Positions 16,507 to 23,093 of a stretch of DNA of 35,108 nucleotides are shown in pieces (the first letter of the stretch is position 1; every line of letters starts with the position of its first letter). The stretch covers positions 1 through 35,108 of the forward strand of contig JAJDOA010000138.1 of assembly GCA_022340405.1 (NCBI GenBank), given 5' to 3'. The position numbers and the translations under genes were made by a program. The stretch comes from Desulfobacteraceae bacterium (GTDB lineage: Bacteria; Desulfobacterota; Desulfobacteria; Desulfobacterales; JAJDOA01). The notes beneath the pieces are model-generated. The model was given only the letters and a program-made list of their open reading frames with translations. It was not told the origin of the DNA and ran no database searches.

Positions 16507-17169
16507 TCACCCAAGGCCGGGATAGTACCCCACCCCGTCCAGATGGGCCACGTCTCCCCAGCTGCGGATGACCCAGCGGGCGGTGCCGTAGAAGACACCG
16601 TGGGTGACCACGCTCAGGCTGGCGTTGGTGGTGACGAAACACCGCGGCCGGGACAGGGGAATGTCTGCGACATAGCGAAACAGACTGTCGAGCACCCCTC
16701 CGTGAAGAACCACCACGATGGTCGTACCCGATCTGCTTGCAAGGCAGTCGTCGAAGAACGCGGCGTTTCGCCGGTAATGCTCCCGATGGCTTTCCCCCCC
16801 GGGGATGGCAAAATCCGGATCGTTGGTCATCCACTGCTTCAGTAGGCCCGGGTGGTGCTGTTCGACTTCGGCAAGGGTCATCCCCTCCAGGATACCGAAG
16901 TTCCTCTCCCGCAGACGGGCGTCGGTATGAACGGCATGTCCGGTGGCCTCGACGATGAGGGCCGCCGACTGCCTGGCGCGGCCCAGATCGCTGCTGATCA
17001 ACGTGTCGAAGTCGACATCTCGGAGACGGCGGGCCAGCTCTCGGATCTGCTGCCGGCCCGTTTCGGTCAGAGGGCTGTCCCCATGGCCCTGGACACGGTC
17101 TTGGATGTTCCAGGTCGTTTCACCGTGACGAACGGCCATCAGCGTGGTCTGTCGGATCGTATCCGCCAT
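16507..17169 (-). CDS. Histidine phosphatase family protein (phosphoglycerate-mutase-like)
   Basis: This 220-residue protein has the RHG motif in LMAVRHGETTWN (catalytic His), the phosphate-binding Arg in SSDLGRARQSA, the acid in LRERNFGILEGMT, and the second catalytic His in VVVLHGGVLDSLFRY. The layout matches cofactor-dependent PGM-like phosphatases (GpmB/CobC/PhoE type). A metabolic mutase role is less likely than a broad phosphatase for this subgroup. The ATG at 17169 has an AAAGGAAGG ribosome site; a longer in-frame start at 17199 lacks one. It is divergent from the flavin reductase-like gene across a G-rich intergenic stretch. The substrate is unknown. Confidence 0.88.
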   Translation of the reverse strand: MADTIRQTTLMAVRHGETTWNIQDRVQGHGDSPLTETGRQQIRELARRLRDVDFDTLISSDLGRARQSAALIVEATGHAVHTDARLRERNFGILEGMTLAEVEQHHPGLLKQWMTNDPDFAIPGGESHREHYRRNAAFFDDCLASRSGTTIVVVLHGGVLDSLFRYVADIPLSRPRCFVTTNASLSVVTHGVFYGTARWVIRSWGDVAHLDGVGYYPGLG

Positions 17170-17274
17170 TTCCTTCCTTTCCCCTCTCGAGCGTTTCAAG
17201 AAAACCTATCCTATCGGGGCGAAGGTTTCAACGCCGATGCGTTGGATGGGGGGGATTGGCATGGTTCGTTGGTT

Positions 17275-17319
17275 GGGTCCGGCTGGTTGGGCTCTGTGGG
17301 CTGGGTTGGGTTGGAAGGG
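17275..17319 (+). other. G-run cluster with G-quadruplex potential
   Basis: Six GGG runs occur on the plus strand at 17275-77, 17289-91, 17298-300, 17303-05, 17308-10 and 17317-19. The last five are separated by loops of 6, 2, 2 and 6 nt, and the first by 11 nt. This fits the usual G-quadruplex pattern. It lies in the 230-nt gap between divergent genes, about 80 nt before the ATG at 17399, so it may be in the promoter or 5' leader of the flavin reductase-like gene. Confidence 0.5.
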
Positions 17320-17398
17320 CAGGTCTGATACAGTGGGGTTCACATGCGGATTCGATCCTCTGCCATCTTACATTTCAAACGAATGGAGGGAACCAAAA

Positions 17399-17965
17399 AT
17401 GAAGCGATCCTTTGGGGCGAAGACCATGATTTTCCCGACGCCGGTGTGGTGCGTGGGCACCTACGACGCCGACGGCAAAGCCAACGTGATGACCATCGCA
17501 TGGGGCGGCATCTGCTGCTCCAAACCGCCATGTGTGACGGTGTCCCTGCGGAAAGCCACCTACACCTTCGACTGCCTCCTTCATCGGAAGGCCTTTACGC
17601 TGAGCGTCCCATCGGATCGGTACGCCAAGGAAGCCGACTATTTCGGGATGGCTTCCGGCCGCAATACGGACAAGTTCGCCGACACCGGGCTGACGGCGGC
17701 CCGTTCGGAAACGGTGGACGCTCCCTACGTGGCGGAATTTCCCATGGTGCTGGCGTGCCGACTGATTCACCACCACGAAATCGGTCTGCACACGCACTTT
17801 GTCGGAGAAATCGCGGACGTGATGGTGGACGAGGAAGCGCTGAACGAGGAGGGGCAGCCGGACATCGAAAAAATCCGCCCCGTGGTGTTCAGCCCGGAGG
17901 TGAGAAGCTATCACGGCATCGGCAGCTTCATCGGCAAGGCGTTCTCCATCGGCAAATCCATCTAG
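17399..17965 (+). CDS. Flavin reductase-like (FMN-binding split barrel) protein
   Basis: This 188-residue protein of the flavoredoxin/flavin-reductase-like group has the N-terminal block TMIFPTPVWCVGTYDADGK, the FMN-contact region NVMTIAWGGICCSKPPCVTVSL, then RKATYT and FTLSVPSDRYAKEADYFG. Family members bind FMN and act as flavoredoxin-like electron carriers or as reductases, and they are common in sulfate reducers. Cys residues around 40-50 could be redox-active. ATG 17399 has GGAGGG eight bases upstream; longer in-frame starts (to 17144) run into unlikely low-complexity sequence. It is followed at once by a structured repeat element that fills the gap to the opposing SpoIIE phosphatase gene. 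Confidence 0.85.
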   Translation: MKRSFGAKTMIFPTPVWCVGTYDADGKANVMTIAWGGICCSKPPCVTVSLRKATYTFDCLLHRKAFTLSVPSDRYAKEADYFGMASGRNTDKFADTGLTAARSETVDAPYVAEFPMVLACRLIHHHEIGLHTHFVGEIADVMVDEEALNEEGQPDIEKIRPVVFSPEVRSYHGIGSFIGKAFSIGKSI

Positions 17966-17966
17966 T

Positions 17967-18104
17967 GGCTGTTTCTACATTCGGATTTTGGTTCAAGGTC
18001 GAGGAGGATCCGAGTTTTCAGCCGCAGGAATACGGCCGTATTTCGAGGACTGGAAACGAGGACGCGACGCCGAGATGGGGCCAAAAGACAATGTCGAAAC
18101 AGCC
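17967..18104 (+). repeat. Structured dispersed element, copy A
   Basis: This 138-nt non-coding element has 15-nt inverted arms: GGCTGTTTCTACATT (17967-17981) and AATGTCGAAACAGCC (18090-18104), with 14 of 15 pairs. The 108-nt core contains an inner stem TTTTGG/CCAAAA (17986-17991 and 18081-18086), an 8-bp stem GTTTTCAG/CTGGAAAC (18014-18021 and 18050-18057) and an apical AATAC/GTATT stem (18029-18033 and 18038-18042). A second copy at 22948-23093, in opposite orientation, has a core about 91% identical and different but still complementary arms. It starts one base after the stop of the flavin reductase-like gene and ends one base before the stop of the converging phosphatase gene. It has no coding capacity. 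A bidirectional terminator, structured RNA or folded-DNA mobile element are the options. Confidence 0.85.
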
Positions 18105-18105
18105 C

Positions 18106-19749
18106 CTATCCGATGCGGACCACGACGGCGGTAATGTCGTCGTCCTCCTTGCGGCCGTCGGCATGGCGCCGAACCGCGGCGAAAAGGGCGTCCAGCAGGG
18201 TGCCGGCGTCGCGGGTGCCGTGCCGCCGGAGAATCTCCAGAACGCTTTCTTTTCCGAACATGCGGCCTCTGCGGTCCTCCGCCTCCCAGACACCGTCGGT
18301 GGTCAGCAGGATCACCGTACCGTTGCGCACGGATAGCGTTTCGTTTTCCGGATACCGGGCATCTGCCTCGATTCCCAGGGCGATGCCCGGCCCCATGAGC
18401 TCGGAAACCGCCTCCCGTTCCGGATCGTAGACGAATGCAGGCAGGTGACCGGCCCGAACCCAGTGAAGCTCACCCCGGCGCGGGTCGATGTCCAGGAAAA
18501 ACAGCGTGACGAACTGGCCGGAGTCCCCCACATTGATGGCGAGGTTGCGGTTGAGGTCCTCGATGATGTGTCGCGCAGGGCCGGCGGCGGTCAGTCTCTG
18601 GCGAAGCGCTGAGCGTACCGCCGCCATGAGCAGCGCGGAAGGGATGCCGTGGCCGGAGACATCGCCGACGGCCACAGCCACTTTTTCCGCGCCCTTTTCC
18701 CCATAGAGCAGGTAGTCGTAGTAGTCCCCCCCGGTCTCGTCGCAGTAAAAACTGCGGCCGCGGATTTCGACCCCGGCCACGGCCAGGGTTTCCTGGGGAA
18801 GCAGACGCTGCTGGATCTCCCGGGCGAGAAGCAGCGAGTGGCGCATCCGCTCCCTCTCGGCCAGACCCGCGGTCATCTCGTTGATGGTGTCCCCGGTGAA
18901 GCCGATTTCGTCGTTGGAGGTCACGCGGATCTTCTGGTCGAAACGGCCCTTTTTGACGGACTGCAGGGTGTGGAGAATCTCCCCGAACGGTTCCGTAAGA
19001 TTCCGGCCCACCAACAGGGTGAGCAGGATACCGGTGACGATGAAGATGACGGCGTGCACCGTCACCGCCTGGCCCGTAACGGTCAACGCGGCATAGGAAT
19101 CGGAGACGGAGTTGTTCACCCGCCAGAGCATCGTCATGATGTAGGCGAGGGGTACGACGTTGATGGCCATCATCAGCACCAGCAGACGCGTGCGGATCCG
19201 GATGCGCATGGTGCGCGGAACTTGGCTGAGGCCGCCGTCGGGGAAAAAATGCGGCACCAAGTGCTCCTGAAGCACGTGCTCCAGAAAAAAGAAGGCCAGG
19301 GCCACGGTGATCAGCCCGTTGCCCAATGCAAGGGTCAGCGACCGGTGCACCCAGTACACGCCGCTGCTGTAGACCAGGTGCAGCACGGGATAGAACACCG
19401 CGGCCAAAAGCCACATGAGCATATCGGCGCCCATCAGGAAGAAGGGTTCGTTGAGCAGGCGGCGGCGGGCCTGGGCCAGACGGTCTGGTGATACGGCCTG
19501 GTTCTGGAATTTCCGGTTGAGAACCTCTCGGATGGGGGCCTCGTAGATGAGGGTGGCAATGATGGCGGTGCCGAAGGCAAAAGCCATGAACAGGCTGTCG
19601 TAGAGGAAAAACGGCCAACCGATGTCGCTGAAATCGGAGACCTCCACGGCCACCATGATGGCGTTGATGAAGTTGGCACCGATGGTGTTGGCCAGCACGT
19701 TGGCGGCGAGCATCTCGTTTTTCAGCAGAAACAACGCTTTGCGGTCCAT
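18106..19749 (-). CDS. Membrane-bound PP2C/SpoIIE-type serine phosphatase with HAMP
   Basis: This 547-residue protein has a membrane N-terminal half with about six hydrophobic helices (among them FLYDSLFMAFAFGTAIIATLI, MLMWLLAAVFYPVLHLVY, LLVLMMAINVVPLAYIMTML and AVIFIVTGILLTLLVG). A HAMP linker follows (RNLTEPFGEILHTL ... NDEIGFTGDTINEMT), then the SpoIIE/PP2C domain from about 335. The manganese-binding acidic motifs are intact: CDETGGDYYDY, VAVGDVSGHGIPSALLM, TTDGVWEAED and DDDITAVVVRIG. It probably dephosphorylates an anti-anti-sigma-like partner or other Ser/Thr-phosphorylated protein in response to a membrane cue; the partner is not in the window. M at 19749 is chosen for a GAGG site 8 nt upstream; ATG 19782 is an alternative. 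It is divergent from the TerB-like gene. Confidence 0.9.
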   Translation of the reverse strand: MDRKALFLLKNEMLAANVLANTIGANFINAIMVAVEVSDFSDIGWPFFLYDSLFMAFAFGTAIIATLIYEAPIREVLNRKFQNQAVSPDRLAQARRRLLNEPFFLMGADMLMWLLAAVFYPVLHLVYSSGVYWVHRSLTLALGNGLITVALAFFFLEHVLQEHLVPHFFPDGGLSQVPRTMRIRIRTRLLVLMMAINVVPLAYIMTMLWRVNNSVSDSYAALTVTGQAVTVHAVIFIVTGILLTLLVGRNLTEPFGEILHTLQSVKKGRFDQKIRVTSNDEIGFTGDTINEMTAGLAERERMRHSLLLAREIQQRLLPQETLAVAGVEIRGRSFYCDETGGDYYDYLLYGEKGAEKVAVAVGDVSGHGIPSALLMAAVRSALRQRLTAAGPARHIIEDLNRNLAINVGDSGQFVTLFFLDIDPRRGELHWVRAGHLPAFVYDPEREAVSELMGPGIALGIEADARYPENETLSVRNGTVILLTTDGVWEAEDRRGRMFGKESVLEILRRHGTRDAGTLLDALFAAVRRHADGRKEDDDITAVVVRIG

Positions 19750-22947: not shown

Positions 22948-23093
22948 TAGAGGCCATCTCAAAATTGTCTTTTCGCCCCATCTCGGTGTCGGGTCCTCGT
23001 TTCCAGTCCTCGAAATACTCCAGTATCCCTGCGGCTGAAAACTCGGATCCTCCTTGACCTTGAACGAAAATCCTAATTTTGAGATGGCCTCTA
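22948..23093 (-). repeat. Structured dispersed element, copy B
   Basis: The 146-nt copy has perfect 19-nt inverted arms: TAGAGGCCATCTCAAAATT (22948-22966) and its exact complement at 23075-23093. The 108-nt core (22967-23074) read on the minus strand differs from copy A at about 10 positions. Core stems are kept: TTTTCG/CGAAAA replaces TTTTGG/CCAAAA, the GTTTTCAG/CTGGAAAC stem is unchanged, and GATAC/GTATT replaces AATAC/GTATT. It lies in the divergent gap between the 61-residue gene (minus) and the Fe-S/HTH gene (plus), unlike copy A, which lies between converging genes. Confidence 0.85.

Follow-up and report, generated by a model that had tools for sequence, protein, structure and literature searches.

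A MITE-like repeat family of Desulfobacterota with one conserved core and many types of end

The stretch of DNA analysed here (the window; 35,108 nucleotides, contig JAJDOA010000138.1 of a Desulfobacteraceae draft genome) carries two copies of a 142-bp repeat, copy A at 17965–18106 on the + strand and copy B at 22950–23091 on the − strand, each with TA on both flanks. The TA that forms the target of copy A is that of the TAG stop codon of a flavin-reductase-like gene (ORF 17144–17965). Both copies consist of a 108-nt core between two arms of 17 nt, and their parts are as follows.

17963–17964, + strand: left TA of copy A, a putative 2-bp target duplication
17965–17981, + strand: left arm of copy A, an inverted repeat of type T1, GTGGCTGTTTCTACATT (T1 family consensus GGGGCTGTTTCTA(A/C)ATT)
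17982–18089, + strand: core of copy A, 108 nt, with a conserved predicted single-strand fold; + is the folding strand
18090–18106, + strand: right arm of copy A, pairing with the left arm at 15 of 17 positions
18107–18108, + strand: right TA of copy A
23092–23093, − strand: TA 5' of copy B
23075–23091, − strand: 5' arm of copy B, an inverted repeat of type T2, GAGGCCATCTCAAAATT (T2 consensus GAAGCCATCTCAAAATT), related to the ends of IS5-family elements
22967–23074, − strand: core of copy B, 108 nt, with 10 differences from that of copy A
22950–22966, − strand: 3' arm of copy B, pairing with the 5' arm at 17 of 17 positions
22948–22949, − strand: TA 3' of copy B

The first-pass annotation of this DNA had located both copies to within 2 bases, its range for copy A being 2 short at each end and its range for copy B taking in the flanking TAs. 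It was right that the two share a core (exactly 10 differences over 108 nt) and that their arms are less alike yet complementary, since the arms are identical between the copies at just 11 of 17 positions and self-complementary within each. At arm positions 6, 7, 9 and 14 both partners have changed between copies A and B with pairing kept; these are the four pairs previously listed as 4, 5, 7 and 12, a count that began two bases further in. The co-varying inner pair reported within the core (TTTTGG/CCAAAA to TTTTCG/CGAAAA) is also real.

A search of the host draft genome (4.0 Mb, 375 contigs) with a 29-base core pattern, allowing up to 3 mismatches, returned 152 matches, and the reversed control pattern returned 0. 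Among 58 genomes from other families of the same order, a DNA search found the core in 21. Scanning public genomes with a pattern gave at least 110 stretches, mostly titled Desulfobacterales, Desulfobacteraceae or Deltaproteobacteria; a few of the matches listed were draft genomes titled Sandaracinaceae or Oscillospiraceae. An exact pattern, which was too strict, gave 0 matches in genome contigs. A covariance model built from 30 diverse copies, the kind of search that the first-pass annotation had proposed, matched 78 of 297 genomes across the phylum Desulfobacterota, or about a quarter of those sampled, in 60 of 199 genera. Complete or near-complete genomes contained up to 124 matches (124, 123 and 48 in G250, G271 and G338, respectively), and at least 150 were found in G008. 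Rfam gave 0 matches at the gathering score in the window and, for eight loci, none at the element at E up to 1. The two copies in the window belong to a MITE-like family that extends far beyond them.

On the strand considered in the first-pass annotation, the predicted RNA folds of copies A and B had energies of −63.7 kcal/mol (shuffled mean −41, z −6.2) and −71.7 kcal/mol (z −9.6), respectively; folds of the opposite strand were weaker (−44.4 and −56.1 kcal/mol), and the better-folding strand was identical in all four copies tested. These folds and the abundance of the core in the host genome are not the work of chance. The inner part of about 105 nt is a single homologous core, predicted to form a long, imperfect hairpin whose internal loops, and whose wobbles on one strand, are conserved. 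RNAalifold predicted 31 pairs from 30 copies, with two-sided changes in 18 of them. The conserved unpaired motifs were CCGCAG facing GAGGA around the apical hairpin and GTTCAAGGTCAAGG facing GACGCAGAGATTGGGC. Among 100 representatives at no more than 90% identity, alignment columns 31–123 were U-G in 68, columns 32–122 U-G in 77 and columns 67–84 G-U in 93; these conserved wobbles are strand-specific, because they would be A-C mismatches on the other strand. Over all core mismatches, G-T outnumbered A-C by 340 to 72, an excess that became modest outside the three fixed wobbles (102 versus 72).

A covariation test on the larger alignment, also suggested earlier, found 15 of 41 proposed pairs in the core alone to be significant (E<0.05) against a tree-based null, in a home-made approximation of R-scape. 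The null placed parsimony changes randomly on the branches of a FastTree tree, and pairs were scored by a G-test with average-product correction. Four pairs were significant without using the structure, all within helices, and controls in which one strand was slid by 2 or 3 columns gave 0 significant pairs. For structural reasons, the gap in the shorter-stem class was manually shifted from column 100 to column 103, which touches only pairs in columns 47–52/99–104. Pairs 36–116 and 37–115 were added after the first test, and 37–115 is significant without the pair list. The first test, with arms included, had little power and gave 3 pairs. Taken together, the covariation, the conserved internal loops and the wobbles kept on one strand point to a core under selection for a single-strand fold, as RNA or as single-stranded DNA. 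The selected fold proposed in the first-pass annotation is thereby borne out for the core, on grounds other than the arms from which it had been argued.

Several variants of the core were also observed. The 4-nt apical loop (window 18035–18038; alignment columns 73–78) is highly variable among near-identical copies in the host genome, with variants including TGCC, GGCC, TGGT, TTGC, CCGG and GTCC. In L290 (1949–2139) and the G338 copies (L343–L371), a related core has apparently exchanged its internal-loop strands around the apical hairpin, with CGGAGGCGTA...TACGCCGCACAAG in place of CCGCAGGAATAC...GTATTTCGAGG and the outer motifs unchanged. At three loci of the host genome (L042, L056 and L057), the core is interrupted by small inserted hairpins such as TCCGCCTC..GGCGGA, once two side by side.

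The arms gave a different picture. They form at least eight sequence families, each recurring unchanged in different genomes; families beyond those listed here also occur.

T1: GGGGCTGTTTCTAAATT
T2: GAAGCCATCTCAAAA
T3: CGGAACAGAATTCTGACAATCGC
T4: GAGACCTTTGAAAAATG, 5-bp target duplication
T5: AGTGTCCATCCATAAATG, 4-bp target duplication
T7: GAGCCACTTTCAAAACG, 4-bp target duplication
T8: AGTGTCCGAACGAAAACT, 4-bp target duplication
T9: GGGTGTCTTGAAAAATT

Identical flanks of 5 bp were found in 11 of 25 T4 copies, where 0.7 were expected from swapped partners. Identical 4-bp flanks occurred in 14 of 19 T7 copies (1.0 expected in the same way), 10 of 14 T8 copies (1.9) and 8 of 13 T5 copies (1.4). 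Most T1 and T2 copies have TA at both ends. In the host genome, 37 of 57 T2 copies have TA on both sides; another 8 lack it on both, and 5 of these 8 are flanked by identical dinucleotides (GA, GA, CC, TG and AA), which is direct evidence that T2 ends carry a 2-bp target duplication. For T1, TA at both ends is alone no proof, and the duplication is putative. Duplications of 2, 4 and 5 bp according to arm family suggest that several types of transposase move the same core. The first-pass annotation had described arms varying under a pairing constraint; we found instead terminal inverted repeats of fixed, recurring sequence with target-site duplications, exchanged as whole end types. Arm mismatches showed no excess of G-T over A-C (148 versus 134), as in duplex inverted repeats, whereas a single-strand fold would favour G-T. 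That annotation had also set a MITE with target-site duplications and conserved ends against significant covariation as opposite outcomes. Both were found, since the element is a MITE and a covarying fold at once.

The element, at 142 bp and in many copies, does not code for a transposase. A candidate source of one set of ends lies at locus L151, in a genome of the same order, where a 942-bp IS5-family insertion sequence (DUF4096 and DDE_Tnp_1 in two frames; NCBIfam IS5_3) ends in TA-GAAGCTGTTTCAAAACC and TA-GAAGCCATTTCAAAACC (TA-GAAGC..TTTCAAAACC), which are T2-like arms. No insertion sequence with T1, T3, T4, T5, T7, T8 or T9 ends was found, and a cognate was found for T2-like ends only. Searches of the host draft genome for DDE_Tnp_1, DDE_3 and DUF772, and of G008 for DDE_Tnp_1 and DUF772, returned no gene of any of these, so the movers are not in evidence there. 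G222 carries the element at one locus, flanked by a 4-bp duplication; in two other species of that genus (G269 and G358) the locus is collinear, too short for the element and without a core match, a comparison of a single locus, drawn at the level of collinearity and length rather than base by base at the junction. Pairs of T8-type ends also enclose short DNA without a core (L227, 27–97; L209, 6055–6294), which indicates that the ends exist apart from the core.

IS200/IS605-type elements and REPINs make no target duplication and have no terminal inverted repeats, and their subterminal hairpins are cut by a Y1 transposase. The terminal inverted repeats and target duplications of the present element argue against either identity. 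Locus L338, which at first suggested an autonomous element bounded by two cores, proved to hold separate copies, one of them interrupted beside a transposase fragment. There, at 1405–1974, a copy without its 3' arm runs straight into the fragment, which is ISAs1-like (family assigned by eye).

Between the host T1 and T2 consensus sequences, the two arms are identical at 10 and 11 of 17 positions and the cores at 105 of 108, and on this comparison the covariation of the arms reflects mainly end-swapping. Mapped on a tree built from 52 cores, end type changes at least 17 times (the minimum possible is 6), although weak branches leave the exact number uncertain. Hybrid copies combine a T3 left arm with a T1 right arm (L096, L098, L133 and L145), T1 with T3 (L123), T2 with T1 (L110 and L056) and T3 with T2 (L030, L093 and L108). 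Judging from its sequence, L030 looks like a nested intermediate, in which a T2 element sits within a T3 palindrome and has lost one T2 arm. In the host genome, a second palindromic repeat, CGGAACAGAATTCTGACAATCGC-TATA-GCGATTG..., takes the element at its centre and is a source of T3 ends (L029, L030, L035, L093, L096 and L132).

We consider the element to be probably a non-autonomous DNA transposon (MITE) built of two modules, namely exchangeable ends and one homologous folded core. Transposases supplied in trans by different insertion sequences would bind to the pair of identical ends and mobilise the element. By nesting and recombination between elements, the core would acquire new ends and in this way outlive any one transposase. 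It would be retained, we suggest with less certainty, because of its single-strand folding; as the folding molecule, read-through RNA is slightly more likely than single-stranded DNA exposed during replication, and the conserved loops are a putative binding site for a host factor. Tentatively, the core may further be a selfish structured nucleic acid that has repeatedly taken over the ends of unrelated transposases, with a fold that aids its spread or tolerance, so that the lasting unit would be the core and not the ends.

That the core acts as folded single-stranded DNA in replication or transposition, as a hairpin on one template strand with RNA irrelevant, is a possibility that we regard as somewhat doubtful. 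DNA tolerates G-T pairs too, and in the complete genome G250 (C1, 2.75 Mb; samples L372–L391) the strand on which the element lies goes with the replichore. From 0.02 to 1.44 Mb, 66 copies were on the − strand and 8 on the + strand; beyond, 37 were on the + strand and 6 on the − strand. Outside the first 20 kb, 103 of 117 copies follow the replichore, the GC skew changes sign at ~1.2 Mb, and the bias holds also where most coding sequence is on the other strand. The well-folding strand in G250 is then mostly the leading-strand template. Against this, no replichore bias was found in G000, G008, G271 or G066 (adjacent pairs concordant/discordant 8/7, 37/29, 10/9 and 3/3, respectively), nor clearly in G338, and local GC skew gave no signal with respect to element strand. 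A general replication-orientation bias was therefore rejected, the effect being strong in G250 only. DDE transposons, moreover, act on duplex DNA as their substrate.

Covariation of the hairpin could also arise by template switching between the halves of a quasi-palindrome, with no selection on the fold. The outermost arm bases in G338 vary from copy to copy and usually match within a copy, as if homogenised, and arm variants of host T2 copies match between left and right in 28 of 57 cases versus 13.1 after shuffling; template switching may help to homogenise the arms. As an account of the core it is unlikely, because the wobbles and internal-loop mismatches that it should remove persist phylum-wide. 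Slightly less credible still is an ordinary MITE in which the core, inherited together with the ends, is a neutral passenger and owes its similarity to recent spread. The inverted repeats, target duplications, high copy number and intergenic sites are all MITE-like, but the core can be recognised in 60 genera despite turnover of the ends, the opposite of what a neutral interior predicts, and the covariation is significant and the loops conserved. We therefore disfavour an ordinary MITE with a neutral core.

Elements are mostly intergenic, and by simple ORF calls the upstream gene ran in the sense of the element in 56 of 119 cases and the downstream gene in 54 of 119; between genes of the same direction, the element was sense in 32 and antisense in 41. 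Its orientation to genes is random, which argues against a cis-acting RNA selected for the host and makes it most likely that selection favours survival or spread of the element itself rather than regulation of neighbouring genes. A host-serving cis-regulatory RNA or terminator spread by transposition is accordingly very improbable and was rejected as the main explanation: some copies have a T-run after the arm, as at L068 (genome G049), where the arms of one copy continue into an intrinsic-terminator-like T-run (GGCGTTGCAT...ATGCAACGCCTTTTTTT), and copies lie close to gene 3' ends, but there is no orientation preference with respect to genes and the element is absent at one locus in sister species.

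The closest known kinds of element are MITEs and, within them, ERIC- and NEMIS-like palindromes, from which the two-module element differs in its inverted modularity, with one interior and many ends. ERIC and NEMIS/Correia elements are ~130–150 bp long, imperfect palindromes over nearly their full length, with a TA duplication, intergenic sites and hundreds of copies. Compared by description, they share with the present family its size, imperfect palindrome, TA (as in T1 and T2), intergenic location and many copies; they are set apart, again by description, in that each has one set of ends and narrow hosts, whereas here there are many end types, a whole phylum and loops supported by covariation. 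RU-1 is cited alongside them (PMC2759123, PMC2229807). MITEs of IS5-family and other DDE insertion sequences (review PMC10969869; Coxiella QMITEs, PMC5896051) are likewise short, non-coding and of high copy number, with terminal inverted repeats and target duplications, and they too form a stable stem-loop if written as RNA and are likely mobilised in trans. Ordinary MITEs are defined by their ends, whereas this family is defined by one interior, with ends of at least eight families and three duplication lengths. TIMEs, the Tn3-derived miniature elements (PMC4133298), are also non-autonomous but show the opposite modularity, constant ends with varied cores. Several Geobacter genomes, of the same phylum, contain multicopy dispersed sequence families, some of them palindrome-based (PMC2700814, PMC2996986). 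The relevant passages of these two papers give no structure, ends or mobility, and on a comparison by description the Geobacter families may overlap the present one, part of which may have been listed earlier without structure or mobility. A literature search drawing largely on papers outside subscription found no such element described in Desulfobacterota.

MITEs are usually classified by their ends and expected to disappear along with their transposase. What small transposon leftovers have in common is normally their ends and not their middles; here the reverse holds. A core conserved over a phylum while its ends switch, with duplications of 2, 4 and 5 bp, would represent a non-autonomous element with a longer life than its movers. 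The family adds a structured, covariation-supported element that is absent from Rfam and reaches >100 copies in several genomes, and it makes testable the question of what selection maintains in the interior of such an element.
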